DNA of 64,000 nucleotides from Marivirga harenae. GTDB taxonomy: Bacteria; Bacteroidota; Bacteroidia; Cytophagales; Cyclobacteriaceae. The notes under the pieces were generated by a model, which had not been told where the DNA came from, searched no databases, and was given only the letters and a program-made list of their open reading frames with translations. Shown here one piece after another: positions 49,785 to 64,000 of the stretch. The position numbers and the translations under genes were made by a program. Each line of letters starts with the position of its first letter. Within the stretch, counting starts at the first letter, position 1. Where the stretch lies: positions 2,377,501 to 2,441,500 of the forward strand of contig NZ_CP130565.1 of assembly GCF_030534335.1 (NCBI RefSeq). The letters are read 5' to 3'.

Positions 49785-49810
49785 AAGCTTCAGTAGAGAT
49801 ACTGAAGCTT
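49785..49810 (-). terminator. Rho-independent terminator, minus strand
   Basis: Perfect 10-bp stem AAGCTTCAGT/ACTGAAGCTT with a 6-nt loop. On the minus strand it is followed by seven T residues. No coding gene ends just before it in that direction; the tRNA-like 3' end at 49811-49830 does, which is what one expects behind a tRNA. Confidence 0.65.
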
Positions 49811-49830
49811 AATTTTGTGGGCCCACCTGG
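49811..49830 (-). other. tRNA 3'-end-like fragment/palindrome (possible attachment site)
   Basis: The minus strand reads TCCAGGTGGGCCCACA, which fits the 3' half of a T stem (CCAGG) joined to an acceptor strand (TGGGCCC) as in tRNA-Ile-type genes, and is followed by a terminator. No other tRNA part is present upstream. It includes the palindrome GTGGGCCCAC (49817-49826). Such orphan 3' ends are typical att scars of elements integrated at tRNAs. Rests on resemblance alone. Confidence 0.38.
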
Positions 49831-50063
49831 ACCACACTAAAACCTTATTTAAAACTGATAATCAGTTGCTTATGATTTGAATGGTTTAAAAGGGCACGAA
49901 TAGGGTACTAAAAATTTAATCGTTTTTGTTGCCAAATATCGGCTCTGTTTGAAGCTAAAACTGTCAAAGAACGTTTCTTTGTTATACTAAATATACGCAA
50001 AAAAGGGCAAATTTTATGAATAAAAGGCGGGAAAATTTCTGGATTAGAACCTAAAAATTTGGC
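49831..50063. other. Gene-free flank of the 50-52 kb cassette
   Basis: No supported gene. The stretch contains GGGCACGAATAGGGTACTAA, a shape that could be a recombinase arm site, but no integrase follows. Confidence 0.25.
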
Positions 50064-50261
50064 TTAATCTGTAAGGTATTCCTGGACTGTTTCAGCATCT
50101 ATTCCAGTGTAATCTGCGAACTCGGAAACGGTTATGAGCTGGTGCTTTTCTTTTCCTCTTCTTTCCCGAATCTTCTCTAGTAGCCTTCTTCCGGTGCGTT
50201 CACTCTTACCTGTTATGCGCTGAATGTCCTTTGGGTATATGACGGTTCTTTTTAAGATCAT
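50064..50261 (-). CDS. 65-aa putative HTH protein of the 50-52 kb cassette
   Basis: A 65-aa protein with two helix-turn-helix-like halves: VIYPKDIQRITGKSERTGRR looks like a recognition helix pair, and VSEFADYTGIDAETVQEYL a second helical unit. It has no membrane segment. It is divergent from the 256-aa gene at 50443, with a 180-bp gap holding an AACGG/CCGTT hairpin, so it may regulate that cassette. The gene is short, but the residue pattern is protein-like and the ATG is good. Confidence 0.6.
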   Translation of the reverse strand: MILKRTVIYPKDIQRITGKSERTGRRLLEKIRERRGKEKHQLITVSEFADYTGIDAETVQEYLTD

Positions 50262-50442
50262 TACTTCATACTTTATCTATACTTTATCCATAAGGATGCT
50301 ATACACTAATATAGCCAATTTCTTGAAAGCTTTAACGACAATAATTGCCAATTAAGACAACACGACCTTTAACGGAAGTCCGTTTTTGACAAACGCTATT
50401 TGAGAGAATACTTTGGTGGCTCATCAAATATTTTTTTCAATT

Positions 50443-51213
50443 ATGGCAAGACAAAAAGGAATTATCAAACTTAAAGGAAAGATCGGAGATTTGTCTTTCT
50501 ACAAAACGAAAGATGGCTACTTGGCTAGAGAAAAAGGGGGCATTGACAAGGAGCGTATGAAGAACGATCCAGCTTTCCAACGGACTCGAGAAAATGGCGC
50601 TGAATTTGGAAGAGCTGGAAAAGCTGGCAGGCTTTTGAGAACTTCTGTTCGTCCTTTGCTTTTGAAGGCGGCTGATGGTCGAGTGGCCAGCCGAATGACT
50701 CGAGAAATGGTGAAGGTCGTGAAAAGCGATACATCCAACGATAGAGGCGAAAGAACGGCTACTGACGGTGATATTGAATTGCTGAAGGGCTTTGAGTTCA
50801 ATCAAAGTGGAAAGCTGAATGCCACCATATATGCGCCTTTTACGGCTGCTATTGATCGAGCAACTGGGGAAGCAACGATAAACATTCCGGCTTTTATTCC
50901 GCAGAATACTTTTGCTGCTCCTGGAGGGGCAAGTCATATGCGTTTGGTGTCAGCTGCAAGTAAAGTAGATTTCGCAGAGGAAACATTCAGTCTGGGTACT
51001 GATGAAAGCAGTGAGCTAGCCATTGGACCACAAACTGAAGCGGCTATCACTTTAACCGCCACAGTTCCTTCTGGTGGAAAAGAACCGATCTTTTTGCTCT
51101 TTGGTGTAGAATTCCTTCAGGAGGTGAATGGGACAATGTACCCGCTTAAAAATGGTGCATACAATGCCCTTGCATTGGTGGAGATTGACAATACTATTCC
51201 TGGACCTTTATAG
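50443..51213 (+). CDS. 256-aa unknown protein, first gene of the cassette
   Basis: I start at the ATG at 50443 (MARQKGIIKLKGKIGDLSFY); the frame above it opens with TTG only. The 256-aa protein has no signal peptide. Its first 90 residues are basic (KDGYLAREKGGIDKERMKND, FGRAGKAGRLLRTSVRPLLL) and the remainder a beta-rich domain (FTAAIDRATGEATINIPAF, PIFLLFGVEFLQEVNGTMYP). No enzyme motif is visible. The architecture would suit a structural or nucleic-acid-associated protein. Co-directional with the DUF5675-like gene 9 bp downstream. Function unknown. Confidence 0.8.
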   Translation: MARQKGIIKLKGKIGDLSFYKTKDGYLAREKGGIDKERMKNDPAFQRTRENGAEFGRAGKAGRLLRTSVRPLLLKAADGRVASRMTREMVKVVKSDTSNDRGERTATDGDIELLKGFEFNQSGKLNATIYAPFTAAIDRATGEATINIPAFIPQNTFAAPGGASHMRLVSAASKVDFAEETFSLGTDESSELAIGPQTEAAITLTATVPSGGKEPIFLLFGVEFLQEVNGTMYPLKNGAYNALALVEIDNTIPGPL

Positions 51214-51222
51214 AATTAGGAA

Positions 51223-51885
51223 ATGAGTTTTGAACTTATTCGAAATTATAGGTCAAGCGGAACCAATGGAACTTTAAGGTATGGCAGTGAAAAAATCTGC
51301 CATACCATTGAACTTCCTTGGAAGGACAATGAAGTAAATGTCAGTTGCATTCCTGAAGGTAGATACCTTTTGGAGAAAAGGATTACGCATGAAAGGGGAT
51401 TTCATCTGATATTGAAAAGTGTTCCAGGAAGGAGTTGGATTTTAATCCATCCTGCTAATGATGCCCGAACAGAACTGGAAGGCTGCATTGCACCAGTCTC
51501 GGAGCTAACAGGAATAGGAAAAGGAAGTCGATCGGGTGAAGCCACGGACAGGCTTTTGGAAATCTTTGAAGAGGCTCAAGAGAAGCAGAATCATATTTAC
51601 ATCACGATTAAAGAGAAATCAGCTATGAATATTTTAGAAAGGGTAAAAAAGCCCACTCCAAATTTATTTAGAAAATTGCGGACTGTCGGTTTGGTATTGG
51701 CAGCTGCAGGCGGTGCCATTCTAGGTGCTCCAATCACTTTGCCAGCTGGATTGATTACAGTTGCAGGATATCTGACTGTTGGCGCTAGTGTTCTGACTGC
51801 GGTCAGTCAGGTGACGGTGGATGATGAGGTCAAAATACCTCCACTGCCTGAGGTAAAAAACAAAGGAGATGCAAGTCCACGGTAA
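51223..51885 (+). CDS. DUF5675-like protein fused to a membrane hairpin
   Basis: A 220-aa protein. Residues 1-135 fit DUF5675 (CIPEGRYLLEKRITHERGFH, then H76 in WILIHPANDAR and C88 in ELEGCIAPV). The spaced histidine and GC pair recalls the HxG/GC active site of L,D-transpeptidases, suggesting peptidoglycan-related chemistry, but this is inference. Residues 145-200 add two hydrophobic segments (TVGLVLAAAGGAILGAPITL, VAGYLTVGASVLTAVSQVTV). Its 3' end overlaps the 60-aa holin-like gene by 17 bp. The fusion of an enzyme-like domain with a holin-like tail is unusual. Confidence 0.75.
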   Translation: MSFELIRNYRSSGTNGTLRYGSEKICHTIELPWKDNEVNVSCIPEGRYLLEKRITHERGFHLILKSVPGRSWILIHPANDARTELEGCIAPVSELTGIGKGSRSGEATDRLLEIFEEAQEKQNHIYITIKEKSAMNILERVKKPTPNLFRKLRTVGLVLAAAGGAILGAPITLPAGLITVAGYLTVGASVLTAVSQVTVDDEVKIPPLPEVKNKGDASPR

Positions 51886-52051
51886 GGCTGGCACAGCTGG
51901 TGGAACAATCCTTACGGTGCTGGTCAATTTGCAAAGTGCTGATATTATCAAGACTTGCATTTTGGCAGCTGTCGGAGCATTAGTTAGTTTTTGTATGTCC
52001 TTGGCCATGAAATGGGTGGTCAAGAAAATCAAGAAGAAAGGCCGTAGGTGA
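51869..52051 (+). CDS. 60-aa holin-like membrane protein
   Basis: A 60-aa protein with two hydrophobic segments (about 13-24 and 28-50, the second IIKTCILAAVGALVSFCMSL) and a highly basic C-terminus (KWVVKKIKKKGRR), a size and charge pattern typical of phage holins or small hole-forming proteins. It overlaps the DUF5675 gene in another frame, so translation is probably coupled. Its stop lies inside the terminator loop at 52048-52054. Confidence 0.65.
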   Translation: MQVHGKAGTAGGTILTVLVNLQSADIIKTCILAAVGALVSFCMSLAMKWVVKKIKKKGRR

Positions 52052-52070
52052 GCACTACGGCTTTTTTTTT
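52041..52070 (+). terminator. Rho-independent terminator ending the cassette
   Basis: The stem GCCGTAG/CTACGGC (7 bp, loop GTGAGCA) is followed by nine T residues. It closes the plus-strand transcript of 50443-52051; the holin-like stop codon is in its loop. Confidence 0.88.
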
Positions 52071-52221: not shown

Positions 52222-53811
52222 TTATAAGCTTACTTTTAAAAACCTGCAAAATCTATTGTTTTTATGACCGTATAAAATGAGCTGATTATTATCATTTAAA
52301 TAAGTTGCTTGTGGTCTTATTGTAACATCTGTTTGGTCGCTAGTCAATAAAATATCTCTAGACAATTCACCTGATTCATCAATTTTTACCAAAACAGCTT
52401 TTGTGTCAACCATTTTTCCCGTAAAATTTTTATTGCTTTTTCCTATATTGGTAAATAAGCAATAGATAGAGCCATTTAACTCTGTGATATAGTACGAATT
52501 TGATAAAGTTTCGAGCGCTGTTGTTTCCTGAGCTTTTTCAATTCTATAAATTGATTTTATTGTACCATCCTTTTGTATGTCAACTACAGCAATATCGTCA
52601 GTGTGATTTACGATTGAATAACTTGCATGACCTGGAACAGATTCTTTTTTCTGCTGATTTACGGTCCTCTCTCCGCTTAAGATATAACCCCCATCCTCTT
52701 TAACTATTAGGTCTTTTAATGTAAATCGGTAGGCATCATATTGATTATCATTGGACATTAAACCATTTGATTTATCCTCAATATTACTTGGTTTCTCAAA
52801 GCCATCAGTTAGGATTTTTTTATCTAGTTTTATGACATTACCTGAATCATTCAGCCTCATAACTGCAGCTCCTTCTGGTGTAGTGGTTACCTTTGGACCA
52901 TAAAAGCCCGCAACGATTAGTCCAGTTTGACCCGTGATGAAATCTGCACTAATGAAGAACTTACCAGGAACTGTCAGACTAATGTTGTCTGTTTTTCCGT
53001 TTTTGAATAGCACTAATCGAATTTCATAGTTAGCGGAATAAGATAAGCTCTTACTTGATGACAGCAAACCATTTCTCTTTAAGTCAGTACTGTTTTTAAG
53101 ATTCTGATTATCAGAAAAATAACGAGTTAGCAGATATACGTCCCCTGTGTTGCTCACTCTAAACTGATCAAGTTGATAAATGCCATCGGACATATCTAAA
53201 GTACCATTCCAAGTTCTAATTTCCATCATGTTTTCATCAAAAACAGAATATCCAAAACTCTGTATATAACCTTCTGAATCTACCAAAGTGTAATTGATGA
53301 GGATTTTTGATTGGTCTGGAGATACTTCAAATGTAAAATTTGCATCGTCATACTTTAAATCACGTGTATCAATTGACAGGACTTTTTCATTTTCTTTGAT
53401 TAACTCCTGTTTATCAGTATCCAATGAATAGGAGCCTAAGACAATTTCATCTTTATTCTGAAAAGAACTGAAAATCCATAAATTGTCATTAAAAGAAACT
53501 GCTTCCGAAAACACCCCTTCCTTTTTACCATTTCTAAATTCAAGAGGTATTAATTTTTCCATTTCAGAATTGTGATTGACAAATCCAATACTATGAAAGC
53601 TTGCTCCACCCATCATGGGAACTGAGAGGATACTTGAATATGGAATTAGTAAATAATAAGTACCTGCCTCGTTTGAAAAAACAGGTTTAGCATCAGCCCA
53701 TAAAGTTTGACTTTTTTGTTTGATCATTGGGCCTGCCGTAGCATCCTGAGAAAAAGCTGATTTGCTTCCAAGCAGGAAGATTACTGCCATTAAAATATAC
53801 TTCACTTTCAT
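52222..53811 (-). CDS. Secreted protein of unknown function
   Basis: I start at the ATG at 53811 (MKVKYILMAVIFLLGSKSAF), where a good signal peptide begins; the frame above it extends 24 codons without merit. The 529-aa product is beta-strand rich throughout (for example ETFSLGT-like spacing absent, but DQFRVSNTGDVYLLTRYFSD and GGYILSGERTVNQQKKESVP present), like a propeller of unmatched family. No catalytic motif is recognised. It is a single gene following the gap that contains the structured element. Confidence 0.65.
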   Translation of the reverse strand: MKVKYILMAVIFLLGSKSAFSQDATAGPMIKQKSQTLWADAKPVFSNEAGTYYLLIPYSSILSVPMMGGASFHSIGFVNHNSEMEKLIPLEFRNGKKEGVFSEAVSFNDNLWIFSSFQNKDEIVLGSYSLDTDKQELIKENEKVLSIDTRDLKYDDANFTFEVSPDQSKILINYTLVDSEGYIQSFGYSVFDENMMEIRTWNGTLDMSDGIYQLDQFRVSNTGDVYLLTRYFSDNQNLKNSTDLKRNGLLSSSKSLSYSANYEIRLVLFKNGKTDNISLTVPGKFFISADFITGQTGLIVAGFYGPKVTTTPEGAAVMRLNDSGNVIKLDKKILTDGFEKPSNIEDKSNGLMSNDNQYDAYRFTLKDLIVKEDGGYILSGERTVNQQKKESVPGHASYSIVNHTDDIAVVDIQKDGTIKSIYRIEKAQETTALETLSNSYYITELNGSIYCLFTNIGKSNKNFTGKMVDTKAVLVKIDESGELSRDILLTSDQTDVTIRPQATYLNDNNQLILYGHKNNRFCRFLKVSL

Positions 53812-53922
53812 ATTTTTTGATTTATATAAACAGTAAATAAAAGTAATTGATGGCAATAACCAAATAGAAATATATAATTTCATTTAAATGATTGGTTTAT
53901 GTTATGACTCCCTGATGCAAGC

Positions 53923-53958
53923 AAAAAAATAAAAACCTGGCAGGCAAAACCCACCAGG
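53923..53958 (-). terminator. Rho-independent terminator, minus strand
   Basis: On the minus strand CCTGG with inner GG, loop, CC with CCAGG (7 pairs) is followed by TTTTTATTTTTTT. It could end the structured RNA proposed at 53960-54260 or a long 3' tail of the TonB-receptor transcript. Confidence 0.55.
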
Positions 53959-53959
53959 C

Positions 53960-54260
53960 AATAAAACTAAAACGGCAATGGCGAGAAATTAATCTCAAAC
54001 CACAAAAACCGAAGGAAATAATAACCTTCAGACTGAACACGAAACCGCGTTAAACTAAACGCTGGACGAAGACGAACGTACGCCACCAACCACCGGCTGG
54101 CGATGCGCACTCTAAAAATTAATTTAAACATAGTGCGCATCCACACAGGACCGGTGAGATAGATGCAAGAGCAGCACATAAAAAATACTTCCGCCATCTG
54201 GCGGAGGAGATTTTTTTTGTAGCCGGCAAAGCGAACTCTTGCATCTTTCTCATCCGCATG
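53960..54260 (-). ncRNA. Candidate structured non-coding RNA
   Basis: No real gene fits this 300 bp. It holds GATGCGCACT at 54102-54111 with its exact complement at 54132-54141 (20-nt loop), a GAGATAGATGCAAGAG arm at 54156-54171 paired with 54236-54251 (15 of 16), extending to about 19 pairs outward to 54153/54254. Inside it is a CTTCCGCC/GGCGGAGG hairpin (54188-54207) beside a T8 run, and a GAAGG/CCTTC hairpin lies near 54011-54029. The DNA is GC-richer than its neighbours. A minus-strand terminator lies at 53923-53958. Class and strand are uncertain. Confidence 0.35.
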
Positions 54261-54690
54261 CCTGTAACTTTCACTATGTTTGGATTGATTTTTTCACTGT
54301 CCTGGCGCAGCGAAATTGGCTCGAAGCTTAATAGAAAAGCAAGCAATCTTGTAGGAAATCAGCTATGAAAATCTTCCGATTGACACCAACTTATCCTTTA
54401 AGCTTAGTACTAAGTTTTTCAGTCGAACTCAATATAAATCTCCTGTTTGACTAAAATATGGAAAGTTTTAGCGTGAAATCACAGGTGAGTACTTAACTCT
54501 AAGAAAAAGTTATTGTCAGATCAGAATCAATGTTAGATTTAAAAGTTCCTTTTTCTTTAATTAAAATACACATTAAGCAGGATTTGGGCCGTGCTTTGCC
54601 CACACTTAGACTTATATTAGTTTTGTCAGTTTTCAAAAAATCTTCTGACCAGAATTTTATTCAGAGATATTGTTAAAATATTCCTGCAAG
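54261..54690. other. Gene-free stretch
   Basis: Nothing identified apart from a small TGGGC/GCCCA hairpin near 54590. It separates the structured element from the TonB-receptor stop. Confidence 0.35.
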
Positions 54691-57234
54691 TTAGAGTGTT
54701 ATTCTAAACATTAAATTGGGAGTAAGTCCCAATCCTTTTTCTTTTACTTTTTGAATTTCCTCCGATTTATTGATAATGTAGTACTGGTTAACAACATTTG
54801 TTTGATCAGTGAAATTCCATAGGGCAAAACCGACTTGCGTCCGAATCTTATCACCCATCATGAAATGATATTTAGCTGATAAGTCAGGACGAAGATAATG
54901 TCCTAATCTACTGCTATTTGGTGTTTGATAGTTAATACTTCCATCGCTGATAGGAGATAAATTTTCTGGTTCAGTTATAGGTCTGCCACTTTGATAATTT
55001 AGTCCAACTGAAAAGTCTAATTTGTTCATGCTATAACTGACACCTAAAGTTGAAGCATGTCTAATATCAAGATTGTTCGGAAATTGGCTAGGTCGTAATG
55101 ATTTAAAATCATATATATTTTTTGAATAGGAATAGGTGGTCCAATAATTAAGATCTTCTATCCTATGATTAAGTAATATATCAATACCTCTAGAAATGTA
55201 GCTCCCTGAACTTCTTACAAATTCCAACTGATTTTGAAAACCCTGGCTAGAGGTAATTATTCCGTCCACTTGCTTTAAATAGCCTTCAACACTAAGCAAT
55301 ATGTCATTTTTCTTGTAATGAGCCCCCAGTGAAACTTGTCCACTGGTTACTATAGGTATGTCATCCTCATTGACCAGAACCCAACGTCTTTTCTCCACAC
55401 CTAAGAAATCTGTTTGAAAATCTATAATTTGGGTGGTTACCTGACTCTTAGCTTCTCCTAATAATTCGATTGTAATATGATCCGTTATGAGTTGATTAAG
55501 AGCGAAACGAGGCTCGAAGCGAAACTTATTAAATTCTTCAAAATAGTTAACTCTCAATCCAAATCGACTCAATGTCTGACCACTACTTGAGTTAAAGGCG
55601 ATTTCTGTAAATTGTCCATGAATGTTAAGCACTTCCTTAGTGAACTTTCGGAAATTCGGATTATTCAAATCATCTAGATTACTGACCCCTATTTCATTAA
55701 ATTGATAACCAGTTTGCAATTTGAAATGATTAGATAATCTCATATCTAATGAGGATTTTACACTGACATCCAATACTTGGTTTTCTTGAAGAAAACGCTG
55801 GTTATTTGGGATATCGAAGTTTGTGGAGACTAAATTATAGGAAGAAACAGCCAAAGAAGAGGAGCTTGTCACAAAGTCACTCCATACACGTTCGTATTTG
55901 ACAGTTGCGCCTCGATTTGACTGTTGGAGTTCACTGTTTTTTGATTCTTGCCTGACAGATGGTGATTCACTTTCCTCGTATCCTATCTGGTTGAAAATGT
56001 TTATGTAACTTATTCTTAACTTATCTCGCCTAGAAATATCGTACAGTAATTTGCCACTGTAGTCGTAGAAATAAAAATTTTTGTTTGTGGCAAGTGTATC
56101 CGTTCCACTCACAAATTTTGATACCTCACTATCTCTAAAGGCACGGTCAAAATAATTACTAAAGGTCGGAGAGTTAACCACTTCGGCAAATGATCTCCTA
56201 GCAGAAAAATGTAGTCCTATCTTGTCACTTACAGGTATTTTTAGATATGCATCTGCATTTAACATATTGATTCCTGCCCCGGCCTCAAACTCTTTATCTA
56301 CCTTATCAAAGGTTTTCAGATCTATTATGCTGGAGATGCCTTCACTATATTTTGCAGAACTTCCGTTTTTTATTAGGCGAACTTTTTGGATTAAATAGGG
56401 ATTAAAAGCCGAAATCAAACCAAAAAAGTGACCTGTCTTATACATTTTAATACCCTCCCATAATATCAAATTCTGATCGTTTGTACCACCTCTTACATTA
56501 ATATCCGACACTTTTTCATTTATACTATGGATACCTGGCAACTTTTGCACAGTATGTAGAATATCGGGCTCAGTTAGGCCAGGGAGGATTTCTGTTTCCT
56601 GGAGATCAATACTTAGCGAACCGTCTGCTTTTTTGTCAATTCCTTTTACTAAAAAGTTCTGAACAGTAACTTCTTTAAGCATAGTAATAAGAGGTGCAAG
56701 ACCTATTTTCGCACAGTCTCCCGCCTGAAGTTTCGGCACTGCTATCTTTTTCGATTGGTATCCCAGGTATTGAACTACTAAACTGTCGCCAAATGTAGCA
56801 TCTTTAATTAAAAACTTTCCGTATTCGTCAGATATGGCAATTCCACCTTTAATCATCACTGTAGCTCCTTCCAACACCTCTTTAGTCTCAGCATCAAATA
56901 GGATACCACAGAACGTTTGCAGATTTGAATCAATTTTAAGGATGGTTATGAATCTTTCATTCAGAATTTCAAATTTGAGATCAAAATTTTGTTCGATCTC
57001 TGCTATACAAATTTCTAATTTTTCACAAGAAGGATATTTGTCGAGGTGTAAGTCTCCTATATGGTCATCAACATAGCTAAATTTTACATCAAATGCCTGT
57101 TCAAGAGAATCCAGCACTCTATTCAAGGGTATGGGTTTATCAGTTTGATCGGCAACCTGTCCTAAGCATTCATTAAAACTGAAGATGATGCTTAAACTAG
57201 ATAGTACTACATATATTTTTAAACTAATTTTCAC
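54691..57234 (-). CDS. STN-domain TonB-dependent receptor (FecA-type signalling)
   Basis: An 847-aa receptor: signal peptide (about 1-25), STN domain (about 35-100: PLNRVLDSLEQAFDVKFSYV), carboxypeptidase-regulatory-like domain (about 108-185: FCGILFDAETKEVLEGATVM), plug (about 200-315; INVRGGTNDQNLILWEGIKM) and a beta-barrel ending LTPNLMFRITL. The STN domain is the usual handle through which such receptors contact the FecR partner, encoded just upstream with an 11-bp overlap. The ligand is unknown. Confidence 0.95.
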   Translation of the reverse strand: MKISLKIYVVLSSLSIIFSFNECLGQVADQTDKPIPLNRVLDSLEQAFDVKFSYVDDHIGDLHLDKYPSCEKLEICIAEIEQNFDLKFEILNERFITILKIDSNLQTFCGILFDAETKEVLEGATVMIKGGIAISDEYGKFLIKDATFGDSLVVQYLGYQSKKIAVPKLQAGDCAKIGLAPLITMLKEVTVQNFLVKGIDKKADGSLSIDLQETEILPGLTEPDILHTVQKLPGIHSINEKVSDINVRGGTNDQNLILWEGIKMYKTGHFFGLISAFNPYLIQKVRLIKNGSSAKYSEGISSIIDLKTFDKVDKEFEAGAGINMLNADAYLKIPVSDKIGLHFSARRSFAEVVNSPTFSNYFDRAFRDSEVSKFVSGTDTLATNKNFYFYDYSGKLLYDISRRDKLRISYINIFNQIGYEESESPSVRQESKNSELQQSNRGATVKYERVWSDFVTSSSSLAVSSYNLVSTNFDIPNNQRFLQENQVLDVSVKSSLDMRLSNHFKLQTGYQFNEIGVSNLDDLNNPNFRKFTKEVLNIHGQFTEIAFNSSSGQTLSRFGLRVNYFEEFNKFRFEPRFALNQLITDHITIELLGEAKSQVTTQIIDFQTDFLGVEKRRWVLVNEDDIPIVTSGQVSLGAHYKKNDILLSVEGYLKQVDGIITSSQGFQNQLEFVRSSGSYISRGIDILLNHRIEDLNYWTTYSYSKNIYDFKSLRPSQFPNNLDIRHASTLGVSYSMNKLDFSVGLNYQSGRPITEPENLSPISDGSINYQTPNSSRLGHYLRPDLSAKYHFMMGDKIRTQVGFALWNFTDQTNVVNQYYIINKSEEIQKVKEKGLGLTPNLMFRITL

Positions 57235-58126
57235 TAGTTAAGATTATCTCTTTACCGTTAATCTTGTATGTGAGATTCAAAGGAGCTGTAAGTGCTTTTA
57301 ATGCCAGTTCAAGGTCATTATGCTGAAAACTGCCCGTAAATAAGACCGTGGTATCAATTCCTTTAGTGGTCACTTCTACATCATACTGCCTTTCTAATTC
57401 AGCTATGATGTAAGAGTAAGGCAAGCTGTTAAAACTGCTTTCATTTAAGAGCCATGACGGGCGATCCTCTAGCTTAACATTTGACACTACAGCTGCCCTA
57501 TTTAGAGCACTAAACATCTTACCAGCAGTGAGAATTTCTTTTTTACTTTCATATTCTACTTGAACTTTTCCTTCAAAGCAAACTATTTCAAAATATTCAT
57601 CCCTTATTTTTACATTAAATTTTGTTCCTAAAACGCTTACTGTACCCAATGATGTTTCGATATCAAATTTTGAACCTTTCGTCACCTCAAAAAAGGCTTC
57701 CCCCCGCAATTCAAGACTTCGATTATTTTGCCAACTAAAAGAGTTGTAGTTTAGATCGCTTTGAGCATTCATTAAAACTCTTGATGAGTCAGGAAGGTAA
57801 AATTCCGACTGATTTGCCAGCTCCGTTTGTAAATGGACTGTTGACACGGAGTAGAAAACTCCATAACCAATCACTGCTATTAATAGTACCGCAGCAACTT
57901 TAAGCAAGGGTTTAACCCAATTAAAGGAGACAATTTTAGCCCCTTTCAATTTAGACTTTACTTCCGCATATTCCTCTTCAGAGTTATAGTCAGGTGCCTT
58001 AAAATATTTAAGATGGTCATCAATTTTCTGAAGGTCAGTATAATCTTGCGTTTTTTCAAACGCTTGGCGCTCTTCTTCAGAGAGTGTTCCTTCTAACCAT
58101 TTTTGTATGTAGTCTTGCTGTGTCAT
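57224..58126 (-). CDS. FecR family anti-sigma factor
   Basis: A 300-aa protein: cytoplasmic N-terminal sigma-binding region (about 1-65, with LEGTLSEEERQAFEK), one membrane helix (about 71-92), a periplasmic FecR domain (about 100-190, SSRVLMNAQSDLNYNSFSWQ; ELRGEAFFEVTK) and a C-terminal STN-contact domain (about 225-300). It controls the ECF sigma factor encoded upstream and receives the signal from the STN-type receptor downstream. Confidence 0.95.
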   Translation of the reverse strand: MTQQDYIQKWLEGTLSEEERQAFEKTQDYTDLQKIDDHLKYFKAPDYNSEEEYAEVKSKLKGAKIVSFNWVKPLLKVAAVLLIAVIGYGVFYSVSTVHLQTELANQSEFYLPDSSRVLMNAQSDLNYNSFSWQNNRSLELRGEAFFEVTKGSKFDIETSLGTVSVLGTKFNVKIRDEYFEIVCFEGKVQVEYESKKEILTAGKMFSALNRAAVVSNVKLEDRPSWLLNESSFNSLPYSYIIAELERQYDVEVTTKGIDTTVLFTGSFQHNDLELALKALTAPLNLTYKINGKEIILTSEN

Positions 58127-58182
58127 AGTTTCTCATATATATAACAGATGAGTTTTAGAATCTCCTACCCAAATTCTTCAAT

Positions 58183-58710
58183 TTATAACCCGTCCACTTT
58201 TTCTCTTATCAAACTGAGTGCTTTGTATATCCTTTTTTCTACTGCTTTACGTGAAATTCCCAACATATCAGCGATTTCCTGATGCTTTTTACCATCGATA
58301 CGATTGAGTAAAAAAGTTGCCCTTAAGTCTTCACTGAGGGAATTGATAGCATTTTGTAAAGTTTGCATGTACTCATCTTCCTCCAATATGAATTCTGGAG
58401 ATTCTACTGTATAGCTTTTAGGCTTAATATCTCTGAATTTCGTAGCTGTTTTATTCTTTGCAATATCATTGAGCATATGATTATTTGCCACTGTAAAAAG
58501 AAAAGACTTTGCTTTCGGGTAACTTACCTTTGCGCAATTATTCCATAATTTAACAAAAGCTTCCTGAACTACGTCTTTAGGATTTAGTGCTTCGCCAAAT
58601 TTGTAATAGAGAAAATTATGTAAGTCTTTTGAGTATTTAGCAAATAGTTCACTGAATACAGATTCCTTGCATACATCTAGATTTTCTTCTGGCAGTTGGC
58701 TTTTTAGCAT
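58183..58710 (-). CDS. FecI-like ECF RNA polymerase sigma factor
   Basis: A 175-aa sigma-70 family ECF factor with region 2 (about 20-70: NPKDVVQEAFVKLWNN) and region 4 (about 120-170: HQEIADMLGISRKAVEKRIY). Together with FecR and the STN receptor it forms a cell-surface signalling system. It probably drives the shared promoters at 58861, 60235 and 61277. A TAGGAAAATCCTA palindrome lies in its upstream region at 58774-58786. Confidence 0.95.
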   Translation of the reverse strand: MLKSQLPEENLDVCKESVFSELFAKYSKDLHNFLYYKFGEALNPKDVVQEAFVKLWNNCAKVSYPKAKSFLFTVANNHMLNDIAKNKTATKFRDIKPKSYTVESPEFILEEDEYMQTLQNAINSLSEDLRATFLLNRIDGKKHQEIADMLGISRKAVEKRIYKALSLIREKVDGL

Positions 58711-58860
58711 TCTTATCTAAAGAAGTTAATTTTTTTTTAAAAGTGTTAATATAAGTGAAGATTCATTTTTTTGTAGGAAAATCCTAATTTAGCAGCTTTT
58801 GTAGTGTAATAATGATGTAGCTTTAAAGACTAAAAAAGAATAGGGATAATTTTATTTTTT

Positions 58861-58890
58861 GGTAGGAATTTATCATGTTCATCTGTTCTA
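58861..58890 (+). promoter_or_regulatory. Putative ECF promoter 1
   Basis: GGTAGGA at 58861-58867 and CTGTTCTA at 58883-58890; the first G to the first C is 22 bp, identical to promoters 2 and 3. It leaves a short 5' leader of about 25 nt to the lipoprotein ATG at 58919. Confidence 0.7.
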
Positions 58891-58918
58891 TTAGTGTAGG
58901 CCAAAAAACTACGCCATC

Positions 58919-59959
58919 ATGAAATATTTAGGTCAATTATTTTCTATATTAATTTTGAGTCTCATTTTCGGCCTTTACGGTTGTCAAGAAGAAGCGCAGG
59001 AAATAGTTACTCCTATGCCTACGGAAATAATTTCACTTGAATCAAAAAGCGGAGAGTTTCTTTTCCGTATTAGTCAGCAGCAGGGATCTGGTGACAATAT
59101 AATTGATGGTAGCAGTTGCACTTCAATTGTATTTCCATTTACAGTTATTATCAATGGAGCTTCAGTTGAAATTACTTCAGAAGATGATTTTGACCTTATT
59201 GAAGATATCATTGATGAGTTAGAAGATGATTCGGATAATATTGAAATTCAATTCCCCATCGAGGTTTCTCTACCTGATAATACCGTGGTGACTATAGCAA
59301 CTATGGATGAGCTTGAAGACCTACTTGATGAATGCGATGATGACGATGATATTGAGTGTTTGGATATTGTTTATCCAATTACATTTTCCATTTATAATCA
59401 AATAAGAGAACAAGCTAGTACAACCACCATAGAAAACGATAGAGAACTTTATCAATTTCTTGATCAGATAGAAGATAGTGAAATTGTAAGTCTTATTTAC
59501 CCAATTGATTTGGTCTTATTTAATAATGACATGATCAGCATTAACAGCAATCAAGAACTAGAAGCAGCCGTTGAATTATATGAAGATAGTTGTGACGAGG
59601 ATGATGATGATCATGATATAGATGTTACTGAACTGAACAATATTTTAAAAGAAAGCATTTGGATGGTGGCGAAGTATGATTCTGCTGCTGTCGATAAATC
59701 CGGTTTTTTTATAGGTATAGATATCAGTTTTCTAGACGACAATATATTACTTGCAAAAACAGACTCAGAAGAAATTGATGGCGAATGGGAAACCAGCGGT
59801 GATGACGGATTTTTGCAGCTTTCCACTGAATTTGATTCGGACGGTAACTTAAATTTACTTAACAGAGACTGGAAACTTGAACATTTTAACAATGACTCTA
59901 TAAAGATTACGGCATTGGATACTGATGAAGTAATTAATGTTATAATGACTGTTAAATGA
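58919..59959 (+). CDS. Acidic surface lipoprotein with internal repeats
   Basis: A 346-aa lipoprotein (signal ending LYGCQEEAQE, acidic after cysteine). Between residues about 65 and 225 lie four related units, each with a VYPITFSIYNQ-type strand pair and an acidic helix such as DDFDLIEDIIDELEDDSDN. The C-terminal 100 residues (SIWMVAKYDSAAVDKSGFFI onward) look like a lipocalin-type barrel. The strong negative charge suggests cation or cationic-protein binding. It carries promoter 1 and is followed by a strong terminator. Confidence 0.75.
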   Translation: MKYLGQLFSILILSLIFGLYGCQEEAQEIVTPMPTEIISLESKSGEFLFRISQQQGSGDNIIDGSSCTSIVFPFTVIINGASVEITSEDDFDLIEDIIDELEDDSDNIEIQFPIEVSLPDNTVVTIATMDELEDLLDECDDDDDIECLDIVYPITFSIYNQIREQASTTTIENDRELYQFLDQIEDSEIVSLIYPIDLVLFNNDMISINSNQELEAAVELYEDSCDEDDDDHDIDVTELNNILKESIWMVAKYDSAAVDKSGFFIGIDISFLDDNILLAKTDSEEIDGEWETSGDDGFLQLSTEFDSDGNLNLLNRDWKLEHFNNDSIKITALDTDEVINVIMTVK

Positions 59960-60147
59960 AAGACCATTGAAGCTAAGAATCAAGCTATGGGTAAGTTTGA
60001 ATATTCCTGCAAATGATCTGCAGATATTGAATGGTGGTACTAAAAAGCAATTTTTTTCATCTGAAGTAAATGGCGACCAGACCCCTCTTAAATAAACAGT
60101 GCAAGACCGAAAAGTCTTATTAACAGCAAATAAAGTAAATCAACGGA

Positions 60148-60178
60148 TAGGGAGATCAAAACTGATCTCCCTATTTTT
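60148..60178 (+). terminator. Rho-independent terminator of lipoprotein 1
   Basis: Perfect 11-bp stem TAGGGAGATCA/TGATCTCCCTA with a 4-nt loop and six T residues. The preceding TAAAGTAAATCAAC and the stem core are shared with the terminator at 61182, pointing to a duplicated transcription unit. Other parts of 59960-60234 hold nothing else. Confidence 0.92.
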
Positions 60179-60234
60179 TATTCAGGGGTAAGACTAATAG
60201 CCACTAAAAAAAAAGCAAATAATTTTAAATATTA

Positions 60235-60265
60235 GGTAGGAGTTTGATGAGCTTATCTGTTTTAT
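60235..60265 (+). promoter_or_regulatory. Putative ECF promoter 2
   Basis: GGTAGGA at 60235-60241 and CTGTTTTAT at 60257-60265, again 22 bp from the first G to the first C. The leader to the ATG at 60366 would be about 90-100 nt. Confidence 0.75.
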
Positions 60266-60365
60266 AATTAGTGAATGCAAAACAAATAGTTCGAAATCAT
60301 TACAAGAGCATTTTAGCAATTCACCATTCATTAAAAAAACAATTTTTAACTAAACAAATAATAAG

Positions 60366-61157
60366 ATGAAAATGAAGCCTAGTTTTATGAATTTAATAAT
60401 GAGGAGTTCTATGTTTGCAATAGCATTGGCTATTGGCTTATTTCTCCAAAGCTGTAGTCAGGAAAATGTGGACGTTGCGGATGCACAGGTGGCGCTACAA
60501 ATGAAAGCACAAACTAATCAATCGGTTGTTAATGCTAGAAGCAATAATACAGGATATGTATTCACTGAAATACTGCTTGGTGTTACAGAATTAGAGTTTG
60601 AAACCCTGGAAGAAGCTGAAACGGAAGATGAAGAAGGTGAAGATGAGCAGGAAGAAGTGGAATTTGAGGGAGAGTTTATTGTAGACCTCATTAGAGGAAC
60701 AAGTACCCCTGATTTTGGTGTGGCTGAGATTGCACCTGGCATCTATGAAGAGATCGAAATTGAAATGGAACCAATCCTTGAGGGAGGGTATTCAATTTTT
60801 GTTGGGTTTGATTTTACTAACTCGAATAATGAAGTTGTTTCTGTGGAATACGGCAATAGTGATGAGCTTGAGTTTGAAGTGGAAAACGAGACTGGATTTG
60901 TCTTGGATGGAGGTGCTTCAAACCGAATGTTAATTTTGCTAAATTTAGACACGCTGTTTTCAGGAATTGATTTAAATACAGCGACAGCCGACAACGATGG
61001 TGTCATTAGAATCAATGAATCTTCGAATGTTGATATTTTAGAAGCAATTGCCTCAAACTTAGACCATATCTTAGATGCTGGTGAGGATGATGACGAGGAT
61101 GGAGATATTGACGAGGATGAGGAAGAGGAGGAAGAGGATGAAGATACAGAGGATTAA
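60366..61157 (+). CDS. DUF4382-like lipoprotein with acidic tail
   Basis: A 263-aa lipoprotein (signal ending FLQSCSQEN). A DUF4382-like beta domain occupies about 50-235 (GYVFTEILLGVTELEFETLE, then ATPGIYEEIEIEME-like strand), and the C-terminus is a run of acidic residues (DDDEDGDIDEDEEEEEED within the last 30). Related in sequence to the next gene (61398) and in charge to the previous one. Presumably envelope-exposed; possible cation-binding. Confidence 0.75.
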   Translation: MKMKPSFMNLIMRSSMFAIALAIGLFLQSCSQENVDVADAQVALQMKAQTNQSVVNARSNNTGYVFTEILLGVTELEFETLEEAETEDEEGEDEQEEVEFEGEFIVDLIRGTSTPDFGVAEIAPGIYEEIEIEMEPILEGGYSIFVGFDFTNSNNEVVSVEYGNSDELEFEVENETGFVLDGGASNRMLILLNLDTLFSGIDLNTATADNDGVIRINESSNVDILEAIASNLDHILDAGEDDDEDGDIDEDEEEEEEDEDTED

Positions 61158-61181
61158 GAAAAGCAATTAAAGTAAATCAAC

Positions 61182-61216
61182 AAAAAGGGAGATCAGTTTT
61201 GGTCTCCCTTTTTTTA
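61182..61216 (+). terminator. Rho-independent terminator of lipoprotein 2
   Basis: 11-bp stem AAAAAGGGAGA/TCTCCCTTTTT with a 10-nt loop and a long T run. Its GGGAGATCA core repeats that of the terminator at 60148. Confidence 0.9.
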
Positions 61217-61276
61217 TTCAAGTACAAGGCTGCAATCCAATTTTTGTAAAAAAAGCAAAATAATAGGGAATGTGAG

Positions 61277-61307
61277 GTAGGAGTTTTTAGAGCTCAGCTG
61301 TTTTATA
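61277..61307 (+). promoter_or_regulatory. Putative ECF promoter 3
   Basis: GGTAGGA at 61277-61283 and CTGTTTTAT at 61299-61307, exactly 22 bp from the first G to the first C and otherwise unlike in spacer sequence. About 85-90 nt of leader to the ATG at 61398. Confidence 0.75.
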
Positions 61308-61397
61308 GATTGTGAAGAGAATAGGTTTTTAAAAAACTAATTGCCGAGGCCCTTCAGAAATTCTAAACCAATTTTAAACAAACAAAATTTAATCCTT

Positions 61398-62090
61398 ATG
61401 AAAAATTATTTTAAGTCAATCCCAGCATATTTCGTAGCTTCAGTACTCATTTTTAGTGCATGTAGTGAAGATGCAGAAACAACTCAGCCAACGGTGCAAA
61501 TGCAATTTAATACAGTTAATACTGCCGCATCTGTCCCTTCTAATTCACGTGTAGCAGCAAACTCGCTTGAATTTACTTCTGGTTCTATTACTTTAACCGA
61601 AATTGAATTTGAAGCAGAGACGGACGAAGGGGATTCAGTTGAAGTAAATATTCAACAAAACGTAGTGATAGATTTTGCTACAGGAGCAACAAGCCCGGAC
61701 CTTAGTAGTCTCGTTTTCCCAGCCGGAACCTTTGCTGAAGCACGTGTAGAATTAGAATTGTTAGATGAGAATGAAATACCTTCAGTTTTATTAGAAGGGA
61801 CATTTATAGATAGTAATAATGAGTCACATCCAGTTAGATTTGAATTTAACTCAGGTGAAACATTTGAGGTTGAGAAGGAAGGTAGTATTACTTTTTCTGC
61901 GGGAGCAAATGCGGTTGCTGAGGTGACCTTCGACCCTACTGTTTGGTTTGCCGGAGTAACAAGCGGCATGCTAGAAAGAGCTACAAAAATAGAAGGCGTG
62001 ATCGTTATCAGTGAAACTAGTAATGAGGAGATTTTTGATATTGCTGCAGATGGCCTAGACCTAGCTACCGAAGTAGAAATTAAATTTTGA
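61398..62090 (+). CDS. DUF4382-like lipoprotein 2
   Basis: I start at the ATG at 61398 (MKNYFKSIPAY), where the signal peptide begins; the frame above it is open but featureless. The 230-aa lipoprotein (lipobox FSACSEDAE, acidic after cysteine) shares the GSITLTEIEFEAE and FATGATSPDLSSLVFPAGTF strands with the gene at 60366 but lacks its acidic tail. Same promoter, so probably co-regulated. Confidence 0.78.
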   Translation: MKNYFKSIPAYFVASVLIFSACSEDAETTQPTVQMQFNTVNTAASVPSNSRVAANSLEFTSGSITLTEIEFEAETDEGDSVEVNIQQNVVIDFATGATSPDLSSLVFPAGTFAEARVELELLDENEIPSVLLEGTFIDSNNESHPVRFEFNSGETFEVEKEGSITFSAGANAVAEVTFDPTVWFAGVTSGMLERATKIEGVIVISETSNEEIFDIAADGLDLATEVEIKF

Positions 62091-62200
62091 TAAATTTCAA
62101 ATTCTCCAAATAAGAACTGGTGAGGAACACTCGGCTAGTTTAAATAATTCATCCTAAAAATTGTCAACTTATTTTAGGACGAGACAAAAAAATTGGAAAG

Positions 62201-62230
62201 GCCGCTGTTTAAATAATCAGCGGCTTTTTT
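62201..62230 (+). terminator. Rho-independent terminator of lipoprotein 3
   Basis: The stem GCCGCTG/CAGCGGC (7 bp, loop 10 nt) is followed by six T residues. Confidence 0.88.
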
Positions 62231-62256
62231 AGATATTATGGTTTTGTGTCTATGAG

Positions 62257-62279
62257 GGCACAAGCGAGACGCTTGCGCC
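62257..62279. repeat. REP-like palindrome 2
   Basis: GGCACAAGCG, loop AGA, CGCTTGCGCC: 10-bp arms with one mismatch. Same size class and loop length as the palindrome at 8246. Lies in a gene-free stretch after the terminator. Confidence 0.45.
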
Positions 62280-62660
62280 AGCGGAGCCTTGGGAGCCTAA
62301 AAGGCCGCTTCCTTTTGCTTTTTTACCTCTTTATCTGCTTAACAGAAAAAAAGCAAAAGCTATGAGGGAAGGATTGTGCGGGTAAGTGTTAGTCGTCATA
62401 AAAAAGTGTGCTATTCATTTTGACCTTTAGTACATATTTTTTTGTTTTGTGCCATCAATTTGAGCGTACTACTGAAAATGGTATAAAACTTAAGTTGTTA
62501 GTGCTAGCGAAAGCAGCTTATAACCAAAACCCACAAAGTGAATATTATTGACTTGAACTCACCCGGGATGATTTCACTTCTATAAAGTATTCATTTGTGA
62601 TTTTTCATGGTATCGGAAAATTGGTATTAATAAATTTTCTAAAACTAATAAAAGATAAAA
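62280..62660. other. Gene-free stretch
   Basis: GC-rich just after the palindrome (AGCGG/CCGCT repeats, to about 62310), then ordinary AT-rich DNA. No coding frame or second ECF promoter box is seen, and no GGTAGGA precedes the gene at 62661. Confidence 0.4.
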
Positions 62661-63629
62661 ATGAAGAATTTAATATTCAACTATACTCTGATTCTGTTAT
62701 CAGTTTTTCTAATCGCTTCATGTAACAATGAAGAAAAAGTTTTACCGAAAACTGTAGTAGAGAATACAAAATTTAAAATGTTGAAACTTGAGGACAATAT
62801 AGTTTCTTTTGAAACGATGGATGACTTTAGTGAATTTTTACAAAAGGCAAATGAAGAAGAAAAATTCTTAGCTGAATTCAAAGAGCAGTTTACTGGATTT
62901 AAATCAAATTATGAGGCTTATGAGGCAATCACGGCTTCGCAAGTTGAAGATATAATTTCAAATCCGGCAGCATATGAATCGTATGCGAAAATTGTTGAGA
63001 ATAATGGTGAAAAGTATTTAGAGCCAATTATAGATGATGCTAACATCAGGACTGTTTTGAATGAAAAAGGGATTTTGAAAATTGCCAATAGGTATTATAA
63101 GTTCACTTATGAAACTGTCTATATATCCAAAGATTTTTCCGATTTGGATGCAGAAAACTCAATGCGAACAGCTAATGTTGAGACCATCGATGTAGTTAGA
63201 GGTAATGGTGATACAATGCGTAGACCAAACGAAGACTGTAGACAGGATTACCAAAAGAAAACATGGCTTAGAACATTGGATTGTAGATTCAGAGGTAGAC
63301 TTTGGACTACAAATATTGGTTCTCTGTATAGTGGGATAGGCGCAAATACAACGCACTATGTAAAAAAAGCAGGTATTTGGTACAGAGACAAAGCGCCAAT
63401 GCTAAGATTAAAATATGATGTTAATTATACTCAGTCTACCCCATATGGAAATATTCCTTTAACTGACTCGTTTGACTCAGGTGAAGAAAATGATGTACGG
63501 AGAATTGACGAAACATTCGAATTTTGTCTTAATGCTAGTTGTGAATTTAGCTTTGATGATGCTACTTCATATCATTCAGGTAGAGGGGATGCAGGAAATA
63601 ACTTTTGGAGTTGTAATTTAAATATATAA
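62661..63629 (+). CDS. Lipoprotein of unknown function, coupled to a TonB-receptor-like gene
   Basis: A 322-aa lipoprotein (lipobox IASCNNEEKV). The N-terminal half is helical and acidic (FSEFLQKANEEEKFLAEFKE). The C-terminal half is rich in cysteines and aromatic residues (NEDCRQDYQKKTWLRTLDCR, FEFCLNASCEFSFDDATS), perhaps disulphide-linked. Its stop overlaps the start of the TonB-receptor-like gene (TAATG, 63627-63631), so it is likely that receptor's accessory subunit. Confidence 0.75.
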   Translation: MKNLIFNYTLILLSVFLIASCNNEEKVLPKTVVENTKFKMLKLEDNIVSFETMDDFSEFLQKANEEEKFLAEFKEQFTGFKSNYEAYEAITASQVEDIISNPAAYESYAKIVENNGEKYLEPIIDDANIRTVLNEKGILKIANRYYKFTYETVYISKDFSDLDAENSMRTANVETIDVVRGNGDTMRRPNEDCRQDYQKKTWLRTLDCRFRGRLWTTNIGSLYSGIGANTTHYVKKAGIWYRDKAPMLRLKYDVNYTQSTPYGNIPLTDSFDSGEENDVRRIDETFEFCLNASCEFSFDDATSYHSGRGDAGNNFWSCNLNI

Positions 63630-64000
63630 TGGCTAAAGAGTTATATAAATTAGGAGGGGGCAAGCATATCATCTTGCTCCTTCTTTTTATAATGTGTTTT
63701 AGTTTTCTTAAAGCCCAGAATATTCAAATTTCGGGTTATTTAACAGAAGAAGAGTCAAATCAGCCAGTTCAGGCAGCACTCTATTTAAATCACCAAGATG
63801 AAGGACTAACAAGTAATAGTTCGGGTTTCTTCACCTTTCCTTGGCAGGCCCATCAAACCTTAATTTTAGAAATATCTTCTTCAAGTCATGAGAGGAAGGT
63901 TATTAGTTTCAAGCCGAAATCGGATACTCTTATCTATATTAATATGAAAGCCATAACATTGGAAGAGGTAGTGGCTAAAGCCAACAAAACTGAAGTAGCA
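63629..64000 (+). CDS. TonB-dependent receptor-like protein (N-terminus, continues beyond window)
   Basis: The first 124 residues: ATG at 63629-63631, a signal peptide ending FLKAQ, then a carboxypeptidase-regulatory-like domain (IQISGYLTEEESNQPVQAAL, SNSSGFFTFPWQ) and the typical short link LEEVVAKANKTE leading toward a plug. The window ends inside the gene. The overlap with the preceding lipoprotein gene indicates one operon. Confidence 0.78.
   Translation, partial: MAKELYKLGGGKHIILLLLFIMCFSFLKAQNIQISGYLTEEESNQPVQAALYLNHQDEGLTSNSSGFFTFPWQAHQTLILEISSSSHERKVISFKPKSDTLIYINMKAITLEEVVAKANKTEVA

Follow-up and report, generated by a model that had tools for sequence, protein, structure and literature searches.

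The window, by which we mean the whole stretch of 64,000 nucleotides of Marivirga harenae DNA that was analysed, contains a compact cassette of four genes (Table 1). The gene for a 65-amino-acid HTH protein is divergent in orientation relative to an operon that encodes a 256-amino-acid protein, a 220-amino-acid protein in which a DUF5675 domain is fused to a C-terminal double-hydrophobic hairpin, and a 60-amino-acid holin-like membrane protein. All of the features named in an earlier note on this DNA (the four genes including the fused hairpin, a tRNA 3'-end fragment, and terminators) were present at the places described there.

Table 1 Features of the cassette and of the adjoining island DNA in the window.
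Feature	Position	Strand	Basis
Terminator-like hairpin adjoining the tRNA 3'-end copy	49785..49811	-	Sequence
attL core GTGGGCCCACCTGGAC, copy of the tRNA-Met(cat) 3' end	49817..49832		Identical 16 bp within the tRNA-Met gene
Repeat pair GGGCAC-x5-GGGTAC adjoining attL	49892..49908		Pair present in all aligned genus copies
65-aa HTH protein	50064..50261	-	Weak HTH_17/excisionase matches, below cut-off
256-aa protein, family-less hallmark gene of the module	50443..51213	+	ORF, relatives
220-aa protein, DUF5675 plus C-terminal two-helix membrane hairpin	51223..51885	+	Pfam E 2e-26
60-aa holin-like membrane protein, overlapping the 220-aa gene	51869..52051	+	Weak PHROG holin match, E 0.01
Right-hand terminator of the cassette, limit of the homology shared by cassettes	52041..52070	+
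Variable island cargo	52222..64000		ORFs; gene names by inspection
Block 1 of the conserved non-coding region	53923..54374	+	nhmmer, 507 bits
Weak form of the covarying hairpin (model R1)	54153..54252	+	cmsearch, 41.4 bits, E 2.4e-6
Remains of block 3 in the non-coding region	62287..62390	+	nhmmer, E 3.4e-30

Conservation and distribution of the cassette

Domain and profile searches assigned the HTH, 256-amino-acid, and 60-amino-acid proteins to no family above the cut-off. The HTH protein is a candidate excision factor or regulator on the strength of its subthreshold sequence matches. The 256-amino-acid protein starts with M-A invariably across 54 relatives. The holin match of the 60-amino-acid protein was weak and was obtained with the window protein, and no holin match was found for its relatives in profile searches. 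Low-threshold matches of the cassette to Rfam, all of them below gathering scores, were dismissed for those scores and as biologically implausible. Median dN/dS values among the Marivirga copies were 0.049 for the HTH gene, 0.072 for the 256-amino-acid gene, 0.119 for the DUF5675 gene, and 0.09 for the 60-amino-acid gene. Values in this range indicate strong purifying selection, and all four cassette genes are therefore working genes.

The genome holds three copies of the cassette, the window copy and two others with DNA identities of 87% and 84%, as well as a solo left-end fragment. The gene for the 256-amino-acid protein was detected in 8 of 10 Marivirga genomes (one to three copies each), in 102 of 295 genomes of the family, and in 32 of 395 genomes sampled over the phylum Bacteroidota, and 377 stretches containing it were confirmed in the species collection. 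Among 74 distant loci, from which the closest species had been left out, the HTH gene was present in 59, the DUF5675/hairpin gene in 55, and a gene for DUF6943 in 37. The order HTH, 256-amino-acid, DUF5675, membrane hairpin, 60-amino-acid, DUF6943 was kept in the distant loci, as was the strand pattern, with the membrane hairpin being encoded by a gene separate from that for DUF5675 in many genera. The recurrence of the gene set in Bacteroidota, which the earlier note had proposed as a check, was thus found in loci of many genera; together with the two further copies in the genome and the low dN/dS values, it places the cassette beyond chance. Two genomes of the same family (G162 and G182, genus g74) each yielded 44 to 49 first-look candidates for the 256-amino-acid gene, nine of which were scored in each, and copy number in these genomes may be very high. 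No relatives of the 256-amino-acid protein were found in the viral_contigs set or in GenBank phages, and no phage match was found for the membrane hairpin.

Attachment sites, islands, and an excised circle

On the left, homology between copies begins with a short core, of which there are three types, and then a paired repeat, xxxCAC-AAT-GxxCAC; on the right, it ends at the cassette terminator or, in most genus copies, continues into a shared non-coding region. The core sequences are 3' ends of tRNA genes. The tRNA fragment described in the earlier note is real and now constitutes attL, given that its sequence, GTGGGCCCACCTGGAC, recurs in a tRNA-Met(cat) gene at 67230-67304 in extended window coordinates, 3.2 kb past the window end, so that the window island measures approximately 17.4 kb. 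In every copy the position beside attL is occupied by a hairpin that differs from copy to copy, and the hairpin in the window is probably the former terminator of the host tRNA gene, displaced to attL. The paired repeat of the window, judged by its sequence, is a candidate for integrase arm sites, and a similar repeat is also located beside attR of another cassette copy (copy a). In 17 of 53 loci, compared with none of 298 control windows, a tRNA 3'-end piece lay 199 to 384 bp past the HTH gene, as counted with a library of only 21 tRNAs. The position of the cassette beside an attachment site is therefore general.

Copy a forms the end of a 30.8-kb island, and its core pairs with an intact tRNA-Pro(tgg) gene at the far end. 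From attR, this far end encodes a recombinase with Arm-DNA-bind_5, SAM_5, and Phage_integrase domains, a 403-amino-acid protein, an HTH_17 excisionase-like protein, a protein related to phage proteins, here labelled Rep, and a DnaC-like helicase loader. Three related species have the same end block, two of them at tRNA-Pro and one at tRNA-Met. The islands are thus bounded by attL, a tRNA 3'-end copy beside the cassette, and by attR, an intact tRNA gene beside the integrase gene. A tyrosine integrase gene adjoins the tRNA gene in copy a and in three relatives; none was found beside attR in the window copy, the integrase end of which has been lost. Lacking both the integrase and a strong hairpin, the window copy is probably immobile unless helped.

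The 25,320-bp circle "plasmid p1" of Marivirga sp. BKB1-2 (L144, NZ_CP129969.1, 1-25320) is collinear over its full length, in permuted form, with a chromosomal region of the same strain that ends in a repeat of approximately 120 bp. Alignment of the junctions revealed that attP of p1 consists of the left part of attR and the right part of attL, with the change-over point located inside the tRNA-Met end, AAAGTGGGCCCACCTGGGCT. As judged from these alignments, p1 is the excised circle of the chromosomal island, with a junction such as site-specific excision leaves; the comparison concerns one assembly, in which the circle and the chromosomal copy differ by 2% and by many small gaps. The cargo of p1 includes genes for a DEAD-box helicase and endonucleases. 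Adjacent genes for a nucleotidyltransferase-like protein and a TIR-like sensor in the cargo of copy b (L006:9876-11833) resemble, by inspection, a CBASS-like defence system.

The cargo of the window island, also named by inspection, comprises genes for a 553-amino-acid protein, a TonB-dependent receptor, a FecR-like protein, a sigma factor, and lipoproteins. Over 4.1 kb, this cargo matches that of a tRNA-Pro island in M. sericea at 96% identity, and 5.1 kb beside copy a at tRNA-Pro is 95% identical to tRNA-Met cargo in another species. The same tRNA-Met flank was present in other Marivirga species, several of which have an attL-type repeat 20 to 30 kb away, and on this sequence comparison the tRNA-Met site is a hot spot with differing contents. 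An empty tRNA-Met site was sought in genomes G003, G004, and G007, in which the flanking genes were mismatched or the contig was too short. Degenerate partial cassettes adjoin full ones at L006:4109-4363, L034, and L036:3042-3329 (oriented region), and suggest that elements have inserted and decayed there more than once.

The cassette is almost certainly the attachment-site-proximal end of tRNA-targeting integrative elements. The idea of a self-contained element has therefore to be abandoned: the cassette itself is real, but it is one end of integrative elements that measure approximately 17 to 34 kb in Marivirga, far larger than the interval of about 2.3 kb considered in the earlier note, with the integrase, excisionase, and replication genes belonging at the other end, which has been lost here. 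Among the island genes scanned, no capsid, portal, terminase, or tail genes were recognized, in agreement with the earlier note, which saw no phage genes nearby. No relaxase was found among the backbone and cassette genes scanned, and the 403-amino-acid protein is without a family.

A conserved hairpin in the non-coding region

Whereas the genes of the cassette had been listed correctly, a conserved non-coding hairpin module that belongs to the same set had been overlooked. The hairpin, with a core of approximately 100 nt within a stem of 200 to 260 nt, is located in the non-coding region of the element and recurs in loci of Cytophagales, Flavobacteriales, and Chitinophagales. In the alignment, 95.2% of cells pair, and covariation was 0.391, compared with 0.136 for shuffled alignments (0.391 being reached by 0 of 500) and no more than 0.108 when the partners were slid. 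On the plus strand, G.U pairs far exceed A.C pairs, and two U.G pairs among them are invariant or nearly so, a pattern that suggests folding of the plus strand. The covariance model gave five matches in the genome, all of which lie in the three islands and on the strand of the 256-amino-acid gene; in elements that have both, the hairpin always has the orientation of this gene. The weak version in the window had an E value of 8.7e-6 in the whole-genome search. In four loci with the non-coding region, no Rfam family (GOLLD and ROOL among them) matched at its gathering score.

In genomes G003, G122, and G221, the cassette is missing and the hairpin is accompanied by DUF6943 and DUF6266 genes, so that a sister type of island exists. 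Both types share the DUF6943 gene and the hairpin, and one of the sister islands likewise lies by a tRNA gene, for tRNA-Thr; the DUF6266 gene, however, stands in the place of the 256-amino-acid gene and in the orientation opposite to that of the hairpin. End modules of the DUF6266-DUF6943-hairpin type were observed at L165:5313-6766, L164:8289-9742, and L167:5595-7103, and some such loci have, by inspection, mercury- or metal-type cargo nearby. Homology of the 256-amino-acid protein to DUF6266, suspected from an alike N-terminal pattern, was not supported by hhalign, which detected none with the shallow profiles available.

Possible functions and relation to known elements

The structure model for DUF5675 had pLDDT values mostly above 90 over residues 1 to 130, and the 17 best rows in VIA-align were all YkuD-type L,D-transpeptidases or carboxypeptidases, with Z scores of 8.9 to 5.1, compared with 2.5 for the next, unrelated row. 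DUF5675 is thus predicted to adopt the YkuD L,D-transpeptidase fold. The catalytic motif of such enzymes is H...GC. In 40 relatives of DUF5675, H76 and G87 were invariant and C88 was conserved in at least 90%, and H76 together with G87-C88 fits this motif. The transpeptidase-like nature suspected for DUF5675 is thereby upheld at the level of a predicted fold and conserved H76 and C88. The YkuD-fold enzymes Pgp2, Csd6, DpaA, and Tlde1a share the predicted fold and the motif with DUF5675, which differs from them in being a minimal domain with no obvious signal peptide and with a membrane hairpin joined to it or encoded next to it. The model for the 256-amino-acid protein had a mean pLDDT of 72 and a C-terminal beta-sandwich, and fold searches against PDB and viral libraries returned generic beta-sandwich rows and no informative match.

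Relatives of DUF5675 were found in 137 phage records, some of them beside membrane-protein genes; in Salinibacter and Vibrio phages they adjoin genes for transmembrane proteins, a placement that, by analogy, a lysis enzyme might have. The records include the 5-kb Microviridae genome MW202581.1 (L182), in which the relative, at 7-384, is a candidate for the lysis gene in this group of viruses. A wall-enzyme fold, a membrane hairpin, and a holin-like protein make up a combination of the lysis or release type, as had been supposed for the cassette, and a release role is suggested by this combination and by the phage relatives. We tentatively regard a release or lysis module as a plausible identity for the cassette, one that falls somewhat short of being probable.

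The proposed route begins with excision by Int and Xis, which would join the two ends of the island into a circle that might then replicate by means of its own Rep and DnaC-like proteins. The HTH protein would control either excision or the cassette operon. The 256-amino-acid protein, the YkuD-fold enzyme, the membrane hairpin, and the holin-like protein would act together in release, with the membrane proteins perhaps giving the wall enzyme access to peptidoglycan, and the element would leave through lysis or inside a helper-dependent particle or vesicle. Replication, transfer, or packaging might depend on the non-coding hairpin as a signal in single-stranded RNA or DNA. We lean slightly toward the view that the cassette is the end module of a phylum-wide family of tRNA-targeting elements and acts in excision, replication, and release in this manner.

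The operon might instead constitute an abortive-infection or anti-competitor device, which the HTH protein represses until a phage or rival element appears and with which the wall enzyme and membrane proteins then kill the cell. Across genera, the module has a fixed place beside the attachment site and is linked to the hairpin/DUF6943 block, which speaks for a core function and against cargo and renders such a device rather improbable despite the divergence of the operon from the regulator gene, the absence of the set from phages, and the presence in the islands of other likely defence cargo such as that of p1. Equally improbable is a maintenance or exclusion module that, by a change in the wall or membrane or by control of excision, would allow the island to persist and would exclude rivals without lysis. 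YkuD-fold enzymes usually modify peptidoglycan and do not lyse cells, which would suit this role, as would the repeated insertion at the same sites that tandem arrays and remnants indicate; the tandem arrays, however, speak against strong exclusion, and a membrane hairpin with a small holin-like protein whose gene overlaps that of the enzyme is a lysis-type set. DUF5675 is common in phages, but we consider it very improbable that the cassette stems from prophage lysis genes, now domesticated or decayed, and has no part in mobility, in view of the dN/dS values of 0.05 to 0.12, the fixed position beside the attachment site in many genera, the lack of recognized phage structural genes among the genes scanned, and the negative searches for the 256-amino-acid protein in viral sets. 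A free-standing 2.1-kb transposable unit, compatible with three copies in the genome and with cassette homology that stops sharply on the right, at the terminator, in all copies, was dropped on the finding of attL and attR and is scarcely credible, given that homology continues into the non-coding block in most genus copies, that the recombination site is on the left only and the excised circle is 25.3 kb, and that the geometry of attL, attR, and attP fits a large island.

Among described elements, the nearest counterparts are satellites and islands. Those that target tRNA genes, including tycheposons, PICIs, and PICMIs, have been reviewed (PMC11389934), with PICMIs also treated separately (PMC10803314). 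Like the Marivirga-type islands, these elements have a tyrosine integrase, tRNA insertion, variable cargo, a small replication module, and no recognized conjugation genes. The named satellites make use of helper-phage particles, whereas no capsid or terminase was recognized in the genes scanned of the Marivirga-type islands, which are set apart by the wall-enzyme/holin-like set adjacent to the attachment site, the 256-amino-acid hallmark protein, and the covarying hairpin. An excisable 10-kb genomic island at tRNA-Arg of Riemerella anatipestifer, with gene content reported as mainly hypothetical, likewise belongs to Bacteroidota and has a tyrosine integrase and a circle excised from a tRNA site (PMC6764341). 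Marine Charybdis elements (PMC12324425) differ in hosts and gene content. Open-access papers on DUF5675, DUF6266, DUF6943, or Bacteroidota satellites and islands contained no description of the element and, as the earlier note had presumed, no existing name for the system. The kind of element, a tRNA-targeting integrative element, is thus known, and the module and the hairpin appear undescribed in the open-access literature that was searched. It is a more doubtful proposition that the islands represent a new class, phylum-wide in range, of satellite- or virus-like Bacteroidota elements that integrate at tRNA genes and have their own lysis set and single-strand hairpin signal, in which the 256-amino-acid protein (DUF6266 in the sister type) would be the core of the exit route.

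A considerable fraction of Bacteroidota genomes have islands whose ends are marked by the module, in some cases at least nine in one genome, and islands with cargo for defence, metal resistance, and transport thereby gain exact borders. Through the module, several unnamed families (the 256-amino-acid protein, DUF5675, DUF6943, and DUF6266) are connected, together with a new covarying hairpin, to a single kind of mobile element, and a fold is assigned, by prediction, to DUF5675. How such islands spread without recognized conjugation or capsid genes becomes a directly testable question.
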